A DNA stretch of 64,000 nt from Roseibium sp. Sym1. GTDB lineage: Bacteria > Pseudomonadota > Alphaproteobacteria > Rhizobiales > Stappiaceae. Numbering within the stretch: the stretch's first letter is position 1; every line of letters begins with the position of its first letter. The stretch lies in NCBI RefSeq assembly GCF_027359675.1, contig NZ_CP114786.1, positions 4,438,501 through 4,502,500 of the forward strand, written 5' to 3'. Both the position numbers and the translations under genes were made by a program. The notes beneath the pieces were generated by a model. That model saw nothing but the letters and a program-made list of their open reading frames with translations, had not been told where the DNA came from and searched no databases. Shown here piece by piece: positions 27,118 through 39,727 of the stretch.

Positions 27118-27315
27118 TGTCCTGTCCTTCTCCTGGATACTCCCTGCCGCATCTTTCTGAGCGCAGGCGGCCGTGTCCAGTGCAGTTTCCGTTCGCGGCG
27201 GTCCTGAACGGCAATTGATCATAGAGACAGGCCTGAGCAGAACGCCGCTGTGAATAGTCATGCTGCGACGCAGCAAAAAGATTGCATAAAAAATAGCCCT
27301 GCGCATAATGGCGGC
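27118..27315. promoter_or_regulatory. Divergent promoter region between the amidase pair and nasT
   Basis: 198 bases. A 15-base perfect inverted repeat TGCTGCG-A-CGCAGCA (27261-27275) is followed by an A-rich stretch and lies about 40 bases before the nasT ATG. It could be an operator, or a hairpin in the nasT leader. NtrC sites would read TGCAC-N7-GTGCA, which this is not. No sigma-54 -24/-12 box was recognised here. Confidence 0.45.
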
Positions 27316-27903
27316 ATGAGCGACGAGCTTTCCATACTGGTCATCGACGACAACAAGATCCGTGCTTCCATCATCGAGCAGGGCCTGCGCGATGCGGGGC
27401 ACGAAAAGGTGATTCTGGTGGACCAGATGGACTGGCTGGTGCGCCAGATTTCCGAGATCAATCCGGACGTGATCGTCATCGATCTGGAGAACCCCAATCG
27501 TGACCAGCTGGAGCACATGTTCCAGGTCAGCCGGGCCGTCCGGCGTCCGATTGCCATGTTCGTCGACAAGGCGGACAGCCATTCCATCGAGGCCGCCGTC
27601 GATGCCGGCGTGTCCGCCTATATCGTCGACGGACTGAAACGCGAGCGGGTGAAGTCGATCCTCGACATGGCCATCAGCCGTTTCCGGGCGTTCTCCAGGC
27701 TGTCCGAGGAGCTTGAAGAGGTGCGCACCGAACTTGCCGACAGAAAGACCATCGACCGCGCAAAGGGCATCCTGATGAGGTCCAAGGGCCTTTCGGAGCA
27801 GGAAGCCTACGACTTGCTGCGGCGTACCGCCATGAATCAGAGCCGGAAAATCATCGATGTTGCCCAAAGCCTGGTGATCGCCAGCGGATTGTTGGGAGAC
27901 TGA
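27316..27903 (+). CDS. nasT: NasT, ANTAR-domain transcription antiterminator
   Basis: 195-residue response-regulator-like RNA-binding protein. Receiver-like domain at residues 1-120 (SILVIDDNKIRAS, VIVIDLENP); ANTAR domain at about 135-190 (RKTIDRAKGILMRSKGLSEQ, then MNQSRKIID). In the established system NasT binds a two-hairpin leader RNA and prevents termination, and is held inactive by NasS without nitrate or nitrite. The start at 27316 is chosen because the longer GTG start at 27250 falls in the palindrome region. It precedes nasS by 58 bases and the target leader lies at 29266-29380. Confidence 0.93.
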   Translation: MSDELSILVIDDNKIRASIIEQGLRDAGHEKVILVDQMDWLVRQISEINPDVIVIDLENPNRDQLEHMFQVSRAVRRPIAMFVDKADSHSIEAAVDAGVSAYIVDGLKRERVKSILDMAISRFRAFSRLSEELEEVRTELADRKTIDRAKGILMRSKGLSEQEAYDLLRRTAMNQSRKIIDVAQSLVIASGLLGD

Positions 27904-27961: not shown

Positions 27962-29071
27962 ATGGAAACCAATCTGAGACCCGTCATCGCAGGTTTCATC
28001 CCGCTCCTGGACAGTGCCGTCGTGGTCGCGGCCGCGGAGATGGGCTTTGCCGAGCGGGAAGGTATCGCGCTGAAGCTGATCCGGGAGACTTCCTGGGCCA
28101 ATATCCGGGACCGCATTTCCGTCGGGCATTTCGACGTGGCCCACATGCTGGCGCCGATGCCGATCGCGTCCAGCCTCAATCTGACCAGCCTGGCTGTTCC
28201 CATGCGGGCGCCCATGCTTCTGGGGCTTGGAGGCAATGCCATCACCGTTTCGACGGCGCTCTGGGCGGACATGGCGGACGCCGGGGCGGATCCGTCCGGC
28301 GATCCGGCGTCGACGGGCAGGGCGCTTGCCGATGTGATCGCCCGCCGGCGGGACGCCGGCGCGCCGCTGCTTCATTTCGGCGTGGTTCATCCCTTCTCGG
28401 GCCATGCCTACGAGCTGCGTTACTGGCTGGCCGCCGCGGGGATCGATCCGGACCGGGATGTTGAAATCACCGTCCTTGCGCCCCAGGTCATGGCCGACGC
28501 GCTCAGGGCGGGGCAGCTGGATGGCTATTGTGTCGGCGAGCCCTGGAACACCGCGGCTGTCGATGCCGGCACAGGCCGTATCGCGACCTACAAGCAGGCG
28601 ATCTGGCCCGACAGTCCCGAGAAGGTGCTGGGCGTGACCGAGAAATGGGCGGAAGCCAACCCCGAAACGCTGGCGTCACTGATGCGGGCTTTTTCCGCCG
28701 CGGCCGACTGGTGTGCCGATCCCAAGAACAATCGGGAGCTCGCCGACATTCTCGCGCGTCCCGATCTTCTGGCCTGTCCGGCCGAGACCTGCCTCGCGGC
28801 CCTGTCCGGCCAGATCCGGCTGGGACCGGCAACCACGAAAAGCGTTCCCGGCTTCCTGACTTTCGCCGGCGGCGCGACGGCGGCGCCGATGCCGGCGCAT
28901 GGCAAATGGTTCTACGAGCAGATGGTCCGCTGGGGCCAGGCCGTGCACTCGGCGGACGCCCTTGAGGATGTCGAGCGGATCTTTTCGCCCGACGCCTATC
29001 TGTCCGCGCTGGGGCTGACAGGTGTCTCGACCGACAATGTCATCGAGATGTTCGACGGCGTGCGGTTTTGA
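27962..29071 (+). CDS. nasS: NasS, cytoplasmic nitrate/nitrite sensor
   Basis: 369 residues, related to NrtA-type nitrate-binding proteins but with no signal peptide, so it stays in the cytoplasm, as NasS does. Shared segments with NrtA include [23 protein letters not shown] and APMPAHGKWFYEQMVRWGQ. Known role: binds NasT when nitrate/nitrite is absent and releases it upon binding. Paired directly with nasT. Confidence 0.92.
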   Translation: METNLRPVIAGFIPLLDSAVVVAAAEMGFAEREGIALKLIRETSWANIRDRISVGHFDVAHMLAPMPIASSLNLTSLAVPMRAPMLLGLGGNAITVSTALWADMADAGADPSGDPASTGRALADVIARRRDAGAPLLHFGVVHPFSGHAYELRYWLAAAGIDPDRDVEITVLAPQVMADALRAGQLDGYCVGEPWNTAAVDAGTGRIATYKQAIWPDSPEKVLGVTEKWAEANPETLASLMRAFSAAADWCADPKNNRELADILARPDLLACPAETCLAALSGQIRLGPATTKSVPGFLTFAGGATAAPMPAHGKWFYEQMVRWGQAVHSADALEDVERIFSPDAYLSALGLTGVSTDNVIEMFDGVRF

Positions 29072-29237
29072 TCGTTGTCAGGGCCTGCCTGCATAAGCAT
29101 CACTCACGCTGCATTGCACAAAAATCAGTCAATTGCCTGCCGAGTTCGCCGATTAAAAATGCAGAGCTGTCGGTCCGCCTAAAAAATCACCTCAGTTAAC
29201 CTATTGTAAAACAGGAGTTTTCCTAAGAAATCCAAAC

Positions 29238-29252
29238 TGGCACGCTTCGTGC
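29238..29252 (+). promoter_or_regulatory. Sigma-54 (RpoN) promoter -24/-12 box
   Basis: TGGCACGCTTCGTGC matches the TGGCACG-N4-TTGC consensus at all but one position, with GG and GC spaced correctly. The predicted transcription start, about 12 bases beyond the final C, falls at about 29264, right before the first leader hairpin at 29266. This makes nitrogen-limitation control through NtrC likely. The agreement between predicted start and hairpin supports the call. Confidence 0.8.
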
Positions 29253-29265
29253 TTTATAGGTTTCG

Positions 29266-29309
29266 AGGCCGACGCTGGCCTAACAGATACCGCGCCCACT
29301 GGCGGGCGC
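29266..29309 (+). ncRNA. ANTAR-target leader: tandem hexaloop hairpins P1 and P2
   Basis: P1: AGGCC (29266-29270), loop GACGCT, GGCCT (29277-29281). P2: GCGCCC (29292-29297), loop ACTGGC, GGGCGC (29304-29309). The P2 loop has A at position 1 and G at position 4, the known ANTAR recognition pattern; the P1 loop has G at 4 but G instead of A at 1. Ten bases separate the stems, as in other NasT/NasR leaders. The terminator begins nine bases later. Confidence 0.85.
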
Positions 29310-29318
29310 ACAGGCAAA

Positions 29319-29380
29319 GCCGCCGCACCGATCTGCATGGATCCTCTTCATGCCTGCAGATCGGTCGGCGGCTTTTTTTT
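29319..29380 (+). terminator. Intrinsic terminator (attenuator) upstream of nrtA
   Basis: An 18-bp stem with one bulged C: GCCGCCG (29319-29325) and ACCGATCTGCA (29327-29337) pair with TGCAGATCGGT (29355-29365) and CGGCGGC (29366-29372), closing a 17-base loop. Eight T residues follow (29373-29380). This is a strong rho-independent terminator placed before the coding sequence, so its by-pass by NasT would switch the operon on. Confidence 0.92.
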
Positions 29381-29434
29381 GGACCTGTGCACAGCCGGAG
29401 GCGGCACAGGATGACAGAGGGACAGGACGTAACA

Positions 29435-30835
29435 ATGGCAAAGACCTTTACTTTCACCCGCCGTGTTGCACTCGGCGCCTTGATGGCCGCCACCGCGATG
29501 ATCCCGGCATCGACCGCCTTTGCGGAGATGCTGGACGTTGAAAAGGACGAACTTACCTTCGGCTTTATCAAGCTGACCGACATGGCGCCGCTCGCCGTTG
29601 CATATGAACTCGGTTATTTCGAGGAAGAAGGGCTGTTCGTGACCCTGGAGGCGCAGGCCAACTGGAAGGTCCTTCTGGACCGGGTCATCACCGGTGAGCT
29701 CGACGGCGCGCACATGCTGGCCGGCCAGCCCCTGGCCGCCACCATCGGCTTCGGTACCAAGGCGCATATCGTCACGCCGTTCTCCATGGATCTCAACGGC
29801 AACGGCATCACGGTTTCCAACGAGATCTGGGAAATGATGAAGCCGCATCTCGAGATGCAGGATGACGGCCAGCCGGTTCATCCGGTCAAGGCCAGCGCGC
29901 TCAAGCCGGTGGTCGAAAAATTCAAGGCTGACGGCAAGCCGTTCAACATGGGCATGGTGTTCCCGGTCTCCACCCACAATTACGAGCTGCGTTACTGGCT
30001 CGCCTCCGGCGACATTCACCCAGGTTTCTATTCCGGTACCGACATTTCCGGCCAGATCCAGGCAGACGCGCTGCTGTCGGTGACGCCGCCGCCGCAGATG
30101 CCCTCGACCCTCGAAGCCGGCACCATCTACGGCTATTGCGTGGGCGAGCCGTGGAACCAGCAGGCGGTCTTCAAGGGGATCGGCGTTCCGGTCATCACCG
30201 ACTACGAGATCTGGAAGAACAACCCGGAAAAAGTGTTCGGCATGACCAAGGAGTTCACCGAGGAGTACCCGAACACCACGCTGGCGATCACCAAGGCGCT
30301 GATCCGTGCCGCCAAGTGGCTGGATGAGAACGACAACGCCAACCGCATGGAAGCGGTCGAGATCCTGTCCAGGCCGGAATATGTCGGCGCGGACAAGGAA
30401 GTGATCGCCAACTCCATGACGGGGACCTTCGAATACGAGAAGGGCGACAAGCGCGACGTACCGGACTTCAACGTCTTCTACCGCTACTACGCGACCTATC
30501 CCTACTATTCCGACGCGGTCTGGTACCTCACACAGATGCGCCGCTGGGGCCAGATCGGCGAGTACAAGCCGGACAGCTGGTATGACGAGGTCGCCAAGTC
30601 GGTCTACAAACCGGAAATCTACCTGAAAGCCGCGGAAATGCTGGTCGAGGAAGGCCATGTCGCCAAGGAAGACTTTCCCTGGGACAGCGACGGCTACCGT
30701 GCTCCGACCCCGGCAGCCGACATCATCGACGGCATCGCCTACGACGGCAAGCAGCCCAACGCCTATATCGACAGCCTGCCGATCGGCCTGAAGGGCAAGC
30801 AGGTCGTGGACGGCTCCGAAGTCGTCGGCGGCTGA
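29435..30835 (+). CDS. nrtA: NrtA nitrate/nitrite ABC transporter substrate-binding protein
   Basis: 466-residue periplasmic binding protein. The N-terminus carries a twin-arginine-like signal ([24 protein letters not shown], cleavage about residue 30). Start at 29435 with GGACAGGA upstream. Segments [30 protein letters not shown] and [14 protein letters not shown] match the NrtA/CmpA family. First gene of the attenuated operon. It is paralogous to NasS. Confidence 0.94.
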
Positions 30836-37528: not shown

Positions 37529-39268
37529 GTGCTGATGCAAGTCCATCAAAACGCCCTGCGTGTTGAAACCGGCCGATTTTCGTCGCCCGGCAGGAAGTCC
37601 GAGAACCAGGACTTTCATGGCGCCATCGTGCCGGAAGATCATGCACTGGTTCACAAGGGTGTTGCGCTGGCCGTCGCCGATGGCATTTCCTCCAGCCCGA
37701 TGGCGCAGGTGGCCGCGGAAACCGCCGTCAAATCCTTCCTGTCGGATTACTATTGCACTTCGGAAGCCTGGTCGGTGAAGACCGCGGCCAGCCGTGTCAT
37801 CGCCGCCTGCAATTCCTGGCTCCACGGTCAGACGAAGCTGGCGGGCAGCCGGGACACGGGACATGTCTGCACGTTCTCCGCGCTCGTCCTGAAAGGGCGA
37901 AAGGCCCATCTGTTTCATGTCGGCGACAGCCGCATCTGGCGTCTTGACGGTCAGAGCCTGGAACAGCTCACGGAAGACCATACCGTCCAGGTCTCCGAAA
38001 CGGAAAGCTATCTCGGACGCGCGCTCGGCATCGGTCCGACTGTTGATATCGACTATGCGGTTCTGGACCTGAGACCAGGTGACGTGTTTCTGCAGACAAC
38101 GGACGGCGTGCATGGATTTCTGCCGCCCAGAACGCTGGCTGCCGCCGTGCTGGAGGCACCCGGGCTCGATGCCGCCGCAAGGTCGATCGTCGATCAGGCC
38201 CTTGCCGCCGGCAGTGACGACAATCTCACGATCCAGATCGTGCGGGTCGAAACGGTGGCGGACCCGGCTGCGACCGATCTCCTTGCGGACGAGGGCACGC
38301 TGCCGCCGCCGCCGCTGCCCAATGTTCCGGGACGTTTCGAGGGCTTCCGCCTTTTGCGGCAGCTCCACGCCACCAGCCGCAGCCACATCCATCTTGCGGA
38401 AAACGAGACCACGGGCGAACGGGTCGCCCTGAAATTTCCGTCCGTGGACATGCGCGGCGATGCGGATTATCTGCGCCGTTTCGCCCTTGAGGAGTGGGTC
38501 GCCCGGCGGATGTCCTCGCCACACGTACTCAAGTCGGCCTCCTATCCGCAAGACCGGGAAAGCCTGTTTCTGGCGAGCGAATACGTCGAGGGGCAGACCC
38601 TGCGCCAGTGGATGATCGACAATCCCCAGCCGGACCTTGAGACGGTGAGGGGTATTCTGGAGCAGATCGTCAAGGGGCTGAGGGCCTTTCACCGCAAGGA
38701 AATGGTCCACCAGGACCTTCGTCCCGAAAACATCATGATCGATGAAGCCGGAACGGTGAAAATCATCGATTTCGGTTCGGTGCGCATCGCCGGCGTGATG
38801 GAAGCCGCGCCGTCGCTCGACAAGGCCGAGATACTCGGCACCCATCAATATACCGCTCCGGAAGTGTTCCTGGGCTATCTCGGCACCGAGATGAGCGACC
38901 AGTTTTCGCTTGGCGTGATTGCCTACGAGATGCTGACGGGCCGTCTGCCCTATGGTGCGGACGTGGCCCGGGCGACCAGCGAGCGGGCACAATCGGCGCT
39001 GACCTACCGCGGTGCATCGGCCGTTACCGGCCGTGTCCCGGACTGGGTTGATGGTGCCCTTCGCCGCGCGGTGCACCCGGTTCCGGGCAAGCGATACGAA
39101 GCCCTGAGCGCGTTCATGGAAGATCTGCGCCGGCCAAATCCCGCCTTTGTGAGCGATCAATCCGTTCCGTTGGCGCAGCGCGACCCGGTCCGGTTCTGGC
39201 AACTGGTCTCGGCTGCCCTCGCGGTGCTCTGCGCCGTCCTGTTTCATCAAGTTTTCGGCAATCCATAG
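37529..39268 (+). CDS. Fused PP2C-type phosphatase and Ser/Thr protein kinase
   Basis: 579 residues from a GTG start with AGGAA eight bases upstream (ATG at 37535 is an alternative). Residues about 8-245: PP2C-like phosphatase (SENQDFHG, VADGISSS, FHVGDSRIWRL, TTDGVHGF, SDDNLTI). Residues about 270-540: Hanks-type kinase (VALKFPS lysine, VHQDLRPENIMID catalytic loop, IIDFGS, GTHQYTAPE). One membrane anchor at the C-terminus (WQLVSAALAVLCAVLF). Similar kinases accompany nirB/nasA in some pseudomonads, so it may adjust nitrate assimilation by phosphorylation. Substrate unknown. Confidence 0.92.
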   Translation: MLMQVHQNALRVETGRFSSPGRKSENQDFHGAIVPEDHALVHKGVALAVADGISSSPMAQVAAETAVKSFLSDYYCTSEAWSVKTAASRVIAACNSWLHGQTKLAGSRDTGHVCTFSALVLKGRKAHLFHVGDSRIWRLDGQSLEQLTEDHTVQVSETESYLGRALGIGPTVDIDYAVLDLRPGDVFLQTTDGVHGFLPPRTLAAAVLEAPGLDAAARSIVDQALAAGSDDNLTIQIVRVETVADPAATDLLADEGTLPPPPLPNVPGRFEGFRLLRQLHATSRSHIHLAENETTGERVALKFPSVDMRGDADYLRRFALEEWVARRMSSPHVLKSASYPQDRESLFLASEYVEGQTLRQWMIDNPQPDLETVRGILEQIVKGLRAFHRKEMVHQDLRPENIMIDEAGTVKIIDFGSVRIAGVMEAAPSLDKAEILGTHQYTAPEVFLGYLGTEMSDQFSLGVIAYEMLTGRLPYGADVARATSERAQSALTYRGASAVTGRVPDWVDGALRRAVHPVPGKRYEALSAFMEDLRRPNPAFVSDQSVPLAQRDPVRFWQLVSAALAVLCAVLFHQVFGNP

Positions 39269-39277
39269 GAGGTTTTC

Positions 39278-39727
39278 ATGTCTGCTCTCACCCGTGAAGA
39301 TGTCACCGGTATGATCCTGTCCGCCAAGCGCCAGGCCGGCCTGACCTGGGAAGGCATTGCCGAGAAGATCGGCATGTCGCCGGTCTGGACCCACTCGGCC
39401 GCCATGGGCATGAACGCCATGCCTGCGGACAAGGCGGAGGCGATGACGGCAACTCTCGGTCTGCCGCAGGAAGCCGCCCTGATCCTGCAGGAGAGCCCGA
39501 CCAAGATCTGGTCCCAGACGGTTCCGACCGATCCCTGCATCTATCGCCTTTATGAAATCGTCGGTGTCTACGGACCGACCATCAAGGCCCTGATCCATGA
39601 GAAATTCGGCGACGGGATCATGTCCGCCATCGATTTCGACATGTCCGTCACCCGTGTCGAGAACCCGAAAGGGGACCGGGTGAAGATCGAGATGTCGGGA
39701 AAATATCTTGGCTATAACGCCTGGTAA
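39278..39727 (+). CDS. cynS: Cyanate hydratase (cyanase)
   Basis: 149 residues, full length. Converts cyanate plus bicarbonate to ammonia and CO2. Catalytic residues align with the E. coli enzyme: Arg90 and Glu93 in CIYRLYEI and Ser116 in GDGIMSAIDF. AGGAGG lies before the ATG. It sits inside the nitrate operon between the kinase and nasA, not with cynT or cynR, so here it is likely induced with nitrate use. Confidence 0.96.
   Translation: MSALTREDVTGMILSAKRQAGLTWEGIAEKIGMSPVWTHSAAMGMNAMPADKAEAMTATLGLPQEAALILQESPTKIWSQTVPTDPCIYRLYEIVGVYGPTIKALIHEKFGDGIMSAIDFDMSVTRVENPKGDRVKIEMSGKYLGYNAW

Follow-up and report, generated by a model that had tools for sequence, protein, structure and literature searches.

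The leader that separates nasS from nrtA in Roseibium sp. Sym1 raises the question of which of its hairpins a NasT antiterminator would read, and what a hexaloop opening with G instead of A means beside one that carries A1 and G4. The window analysed here is the whole stretch of 64,000 nucleotides (contig NZ_CP114786.1, positions 4,438,501 to 4,502,500), to which all coordinates refer; the leader elements and the genes nasT, nasS and nrtA lie on its forward strand. Directly upstream of the leader, nasT (27316-27903) encodes a response-regulator-like receiver joined to an ANTAR RNA-binding domain (Pfam ANTAR 74.6 bits and Response_reg 38 bits, within 27250-27900), and it is followed by a gene for an NMT1_2-type, binding-protein-like nitrate/nitrite sensor (27962-29071; Pfam NMT1_2 245.5 bits), which is called NasS because it adjoins nasT, as in the system described in PMC3795266. 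NasT is the only ANTAR match at E ≤ 0.001 in the 7.26-Mb genome and is 98% identical to NasT of Roseibium sediminicola. On the 3′ side stands nrtA (29435-30835; Pfam NMT1_2 318.4 bits), the first gene of the nitrate assimilation operon that the leader would control, with an ABC permease and a double ABC ATPase behind it and, farther on, a formate/nitrite transporter and a molybdopterin oxidoreductase. A receiver-ANTAR protein is thereby placed beside an NrtA-like sensor 5′ of nitrate assimilation genes, the arrangement by which NasS-NasT systems are recognized. The operon gene names nrtB, nrtC, nirB, nirD and nasA are assumed from comparable operons. Between the nitrite transporter and nasA, an open reading frame at 37529-39268 is one that we take to be phosphatase-kinase fusion-like (kinase-like HQDLRPENIM and DFGS stretches), and the next (39278-39727), directly 5′ of nasA on the same strand, is presumably cyanate hydratase-like.

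The sigma-54 consensus consists of a −24 and a −12 element, and a pattern match to it, TGGCA-N8-GC at 29238-29252, predicts a transcription start near 29264. Two bases past this predicted start begins the stem of a first hairpin, H1 (29266-29281), with the loop GACGCT (29271-29276) on 5 bp; a linker of 10 nt leads to H2 (29292-29309), with the loop ACTGGC (29298-29303) on 6 bp, and a linker of 3 nt to H3 (29313-29324), predicted by RNAalifold as GGC-AAAGCC-GCC with its loop at 29316-29321. The 3′ half of H3 is shared with the 5′ arm of an intrinsic terminator hairpin (29319-29372; arms 29319-29337 and 29355-29372), and the two structures are mutually exclusive. The terminator has 18 bp (7 + 11 bp, with one bulged C) and a predicted energy of −38.2 kcal/mol (29318-29380), and eight T at 29373-29380 can be read behind it. 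Over the 131-nt leader region the fold reaches a z score of −6.04, with none of 200 dinucleotide shuffles equally good. A preliminary description of this leader had pointed to the GACGCT loop, the A1/G4 loop ACTGGC and a strong 18-bp terminator followed by eight T, all of which are present as it said; it had counted two hexaloops and labelled H1 and H2 as P1 and P2, and here both loops exist as members of a set of three, H3 having been overlooked.

In the published ANTAR model the terminator has the P2 hairpin at its 5′ base (Ramesh et al., 2012; PMC3369931). Since it is H3 that overlaps the terminator 5′ arm, the working pair by this model would be H2/H3, with H2 as P1 and H3 as P2. These two are hexaloop hairpins in tandem, each with a stem of at least 3 bp, both loops (ACTGGC and AAAGCC) carry A1 and G4, and the second overlaps the terminator, as Ramesh et al. 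(2012) define such leaders; H1, with G1 and G4, falls outside the A1/G4 rule. The G1 loop is consequently assigned to an additional upstream hairpin, because only H3 lies at the terminator base and H2 and H3 are both A1/G4. Tandem short A1/G4 hexaloop hairpins, of which the last overlaps an intrinsic terminator, and an ANTAR protein encoded nearby are what this leader has in common with the dual-hexaloop antiterminators EutV/eutP, NasR/nasF and AmiR/amiE; it differs by a third hexaloop hairpin, with G1, that precedes the pair, and by its 3-nt H2-H3 linker, as against 5-12 nt in the eut genes of Enterococcus faecalis. According to the text of Ramesh et al. (PMC3369931), cutting the linker to 3 nt harmed the eutP leader, and the search motif used there let the linker vary. 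An additional single hexaloop is described for the EutX sRNA (Walshe et al., 2022; PMC8934654). The NasS-NasT system of Paracoccus denitrificans shares the order of nasTS followed by a hairpin leader before the structural genes (nasABGHC; PMC3795266, PMC5424462), with two hairpins, HI and HII, where three stand here, as far as its description allows comparison; altering HI is reported there to cut nasA-promoter activity strongly with nitrate present, and HII may add to attenuation (PMC5424462). NasT of Bradyrhizobium diazoefficiens, likened to ours by its description, also acts by antitermination through leader hairpins, but on denitrification targets (nosR and others; PMC6759348) rather than on a nitrate assimilation operon. 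Our preferred reading, to which we give a probability of about 0.6, is that the leader attenuates transcription under NasS-NasT control and has three ANTAR-type hexaloop hairpins in tandem, to which NasT would bind. The proposal that it is NasT-responsive is well supported by the nasT and nasS-like genes upstream, the single ANTAR match and the conservation before nrtA, and what had to be given up is the P1/P2 naming. An Rfam covariance-model search of the 64-kb window returned no match, and one of 29200-29460 gave four, at E 0.87-3.9 and each far under the gathering score.

Conservation was followed in the family Stappiaceae, for which 52 of 87 genomes carried nrtA at E ≤ 1e-100 and supplied 52 upstream regions (L033-L084). 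By pattern, the H3 motif and a following T run precede nrtA in 48 of the 52, and on reading the sequences a variant leader was seen in two more (L080 and L082), giving 50 of 52; the leader motif is absent from L083 and L084. In four genomes with nasT that lack nrtA at E ≤ 1e-100 (L085-L088), the pattern found no H3 motif with a T run. These four, and L158 (Pannonibacter), have no convincing leader near nasT, a wider scan giving implausible hits in L085, L086 and L158 and none in L087 and L088; their NasT targets may sit elsewhere. The sigma-54 pattern accompanies 47 of the 49 hits in L033-L084, and the H1 core starts 14-17 nt past the −12 C in the 43 hits in which both could be read.

From 45 distinct sequences 40 were aligned, five (L073, L075, L078, L079 and L081) being excluded because H1 was altered or absent. 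RNAalifold predicted H1, H2 and H3 from these 40 relatives. The covariation on which the preliminary description had staked its reading is found in H2 (two-sided changes in 3 of 6 pairs) and H1 (2 of 5), and H3 is invariant; pairing holds in 98.3% of H2 cells and 88.8% of H1 cells, counts that lean towards H1 because H1-bearing sequences were chosen for the alignment. Cells with a two-sided change number 20 against 7.2 after shuffling (0 of 500 shuffles as high) and pairs with such a change 5 against 3.3 (24 of 500), with no excess of further pair types (11 against 9.7; 92 of 500). Conservation is highest in the H3 loop, which reads AAAGCC in 38 sequences and AAAGCT in 2. Position 4 is G in all 40 loops of both H1 and H2, position 2 of H1 is A in all 40, and position 1 is divided equally in H1 (20 G, 20 A) and tilted towards A in H2 (32 A, 8 G).

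Whether G1 marks a special loop was judged from a quick DNA tree of nasT-nasS with 30 named loci, mostly Stappiaceae, in 28 of which H1 could be parsed (all except L129 and L130). Among these 28 leaders of Stappiaceae and near relatives, the fewest changes needed at H1 positions 1 to 6 are 9, 0, 4, 0, 10 and 5, as compared with 3, 6, 7, 0, 7 and 13 for H2 and 0, 0, 0, 0, 0 and 1 for H3 on the same tree, and the chance that 28 H1 changes spread evenly over six positions would spare both 2 and 4 is about 1 in 10^5. Since H1 position 1 has switched between A and G at least nine times while positions 2 and 4 stayed unchanged, G1 in H1 is, on the sequences compared, a tolerated purine and not an asymmetry within a P1/P2 pair. 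Frequent switching at position 1 beside a fixed G4 also fits the EutV work, in which G4 stacks on Tyr164 and A1 has no specific protein contact (Walshe et al., 2022; PMC8934654). The discussion of that paper raises the idea of a pseudotriloop formed with G1 and C5; an avoidance of this combination was not seen, as C5 occurs in 10 of 20 G1 loops of H1 and in 8 of 8 of H2.

Beyond the family, a covariance model built from these relatives gave one clear match in its own genome, the leader studied (2.2e-15), and four weaker matches (0.009 to 0.62) that were judged to be chance. For the whole class this model proved too narrow: of 385 genomes, 9 had a match at E ≤ 0.001, its own among them, and leaders were therefore sought by script near nasT. 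Genes resembling nasT were found in 55 of 385 genomes of the class (E ≤ 1e-30) and in 117 of 398 of the phylum (E ≤ 1e-20), and 80 of 113 nasT loci from contigs of named species were kept; the stretches come from part of all genomes searched. The script, which required H2, H3 and the terminator and set no condition on H1, was run on 250 loci, some genomes being in twice, and recorded 179 hits in 167 of them. Two hits (L230 on the forward and L285 on the reverse strand) were dropped by hand as implausible, leaving 177, and L036 (H3 loop AAAGTG) was dropped later, leaving 176; further hits that look false, such as the second ones of L103, L105, L142, L169 and L272, stayed in the set, where they probably weaken the signal. 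The position-1 rule for H2 and H3 varied among scans (a purine; A in one; C also allowed for H2 in another), and the H2/H3 loop letters in these scans are no evidence, because they were selected for G4 and a position-1 purine. A second leader-type hit within the respective nasT locus was observed at L141:7067 and L147:11772, and on the reverse strand at L191:3565 and L207:3467. In a single bacterium, Ramesh et al. describe six transcription units with at least 13 hits among them (PMC3369931).

For H1, which the script had left free, 70 representative leaders less than 70% identical to each other were drawn from the 177 hits, and the 48 nt 5′ of H2 were scanned blindly for hairpins with a stem of at least 4 bp including 3 G-C, against 60 shuffles that kept dinucleotides. 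With loop letters ignored, a hexaloop hairpin is found in 33 of the 70 (shuffled mean 9.8, maximum 16) and is absent in 37. A1/G4 occurs in 20 of these 33 loops where 0.67 would be expected, and G1/G4 in three more; three of the 20 come from the family of the window (L043, L067 and L082), L142 looks false and L272 is doubtful. Other loop sizes are enriched as well (4 nt, 23 against 10.1; 5 nt, 18 against 10.3; 8 nt, 29 against 9.3), the 8-nt loops probably being these hexaloop hairpins counted with an open closing pair, and the remaining sizes gave 15 against 11.5 (3 nt), 15 against 9.7 (7 nt) and 9 against 9.8 (9 nt). Within 110 nt 5′ of H2, the sigma-54 pattern stands in 45 of the 70 leaders, where letter shuffling leads one to expect 0.68. 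H3 was also tested without selection, an H2-type hairpin and a terminator serving as anchors in 132 of 194 loci (131 distinct): between them lies an R1/G4 hexaloop (R, purine) in 128 of 131, against a mean of 7.8 and a maximum of 16 in 200 letter shuffles, although some anchors are probably H1, the loop found then being H2 (CCC/GGG-like stems), and combinations count more than once per leader. The commonest stems in this test were GGC/GCC (48), AGC/GCT (37), CCC/GGG (12) and GAC/GTC (11).

An R1/G4 hexaloop is the best hairpin 5′ of H2, or within 1 kcal/mol of the best, in 92 of the 176 hits. Named Stappiaceae account for 26 of 30 and family code f1, largely the same species, for 42 of 48, as against 24 of 98 among the others. 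These others include 2 of 2 in each of f25, f69 and f221; 1 of 1 in each of f40, f42, f84, f95, f109, f177, f216 and Cohaesibacteraceae; 1 of 2 in Hyphomicrobiaceae and f215; 1 of 3 in f44 and f45; 1 of 4 in f12 and f123; 1 of 5 in f194; 1 of 9 in Phyllobacteriaceae (L142, probably a false hit); and 2 of 6 hits that carry no family label (L106 and L119, listed for the search among the Stappiaceae). None was found in the 23 hits of Rhizobiaceae, in 4 of Chelatococcaceae, 3 of f175, 2 each of Beijerinckiaceae and f2, or the single hits of Kiloniellaceae, f3, f59, f80, f89, f130, f157, f176, f187, f196, f201 and f219; within the family of the window, L075, L078, L079 and L081 are also without it. 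In L196 and L285 such a loop is visible by eye on a stem whose weakness or mismatches kept the script from accepting it, and both stayed uncounted. With 33 of 70 blind hexaloops, 20 of them A1/G4, a third ANTAR-type loop thus recurs in several families, but it belongs to a minority (24 of 98) outside the family of the window.

The alternative that survives best, although we hold it to be unlikely, is a plain two-hairpin NasT leader in which H2 and H3 do the work and H1 is a 5′-terminal hairpin that guards the transcript or sets its start, its loop unread by NasT. The opening of the H1 stem so close to the predicted start speaks for it, as does the most stable hairpin 5′ of H2 having a 4-nt loop in 10 of 23 Rhizobiaceae and 4 of 9 Phyllobacteriaceae. 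The 5′ hairpin in these two families (L131-L181) often has a GGCC-like stem and a tetraloop ACGA, TTCG, GAAA or AACA. The window itself leans the same way: in the minimum-energy fold of H1, G1 pairs with U6 and leaves the tetraloop ACGC, at −8.3 kcal/mol against −8.1 for the hexaloop, and across the 40 family sequences a 1-6 pair is possible in 29 H1 loops as opposed to 10 H2 loops. Because 1-6 pairing would yield a tetraloop, it counts against an ANTAR role of H1, and we infer that the G1-U6 pair may weaken this hairpin; a methionine plug is suggested to exclude smaller loops (PMC8934654). A hairpin whose loop is unread is nevertheless hard to reconcile with A2 and G4 of H1 staying unchanged in all 28 parsed leaders while their neighbours vary, and with the A1/G4 enrichment of 5′ hexaloops across diverse families.

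Far less probable is the view of the preliminary description, in which H1 and H2 are P1 and P2 of one NasT dimer and differ in affinity through G1. The 10-nt H1-H2 linker does lie within the eut range of 5-12 nt and H1 of the window does carry G1, yet the terminator is overlapped by H3 and not by H2, H3 is the most conserved hairpin and is present where H1 is absent, and G1 also occurs in H2 loops. With the pair that fits the model being A1/G4 on both sides, and G1 sitting in the extra hairpin, the proposed asymmetry is not supported. The preferred three-hexaloop reading is backed by the protein, for which NasT was aligned to EutV (6wsh), whose chain numbering, as we read it, is shifted by two relative to the paper: 8 of 11 RNA-contact residues of EutV (PMC8934654) are kept (Arg142 as R143, Lys143 as K144, Lys149 as K150, Glu160 as E161, Tyr164 as Y165, Arg168 as R169, Met172 as M173 and Asn173 as N174), and three differ (Lys147 to R148, Arg175 to S176 and Arg177 to K178). 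Also in favour of that reading, NasR is described as picking C:G-closed hexaloops with A1 and G4 (PMC7496416), and NasT of P. denitrificans as binding the nasA leader (PMC3795266). The weakest alternative, a constitutive terminator of nasS free of ANTAR control, is suggested by the position of the terminator 3′ of nasS on the same strand and is made very improbable by the sigma-54-like promoter between the two and by conserved hexaloops with a fixed G4.

Under the preferred reading of a three-hexaloop attenuator, RNA polymerase would start at the sigma-54 promoter and make H1 at the 5′ end, then H2, H3 and the terminator. Without nitrate, NasS would hold NasT, the terminator would form with bases that it shares with H3 and would halt transcription; with nitrate, NasS would free NasT, as nitrate or nitrite is reported to do in P. 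denitrificans (PMC3795266), and NasT would load on H1/H2, stabilize H3 and block the terminator, with H1 as a putative extra loading site. As a tentative generalization, which we hold to be somewhat doubtful, NasT leaders in several Pseudomonadota families could be triple-hexaloop relays that load up to three NasT dimers or hand one dimer from the 5′ end to the terminator-blocking loop, and the first loop could have been adjusted or lost from lineage to lineage, being relaxed to either purine in Roseibium, where a G1-U6 pair may close it, and giving way to a tetraloop or nothing alike in Rhizobiaceae. Free NasT of P. denitrificans is reported as roughly hexameric, which would fit the loading of up to three dimers.

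A search of titles and abstracts of open-licence PubMed Central papers turned up no three-hairpin ANTAR leader, and we regard the triple-hexaloop NasT leader as a new variation on the known NasT/ANTAR leader, with priority uncertain. The rule of two loops shapes both the searches for ANTAR targets and the models of antitermination, in which dimers sit on two loops or are passed between them. Leaders with a third loop, set against families without one, offer a ready comparison for loops as loading sites, and the frequent exchange of A and G at the first position of H1 suggests that true sites may escape search models that insist on A1.
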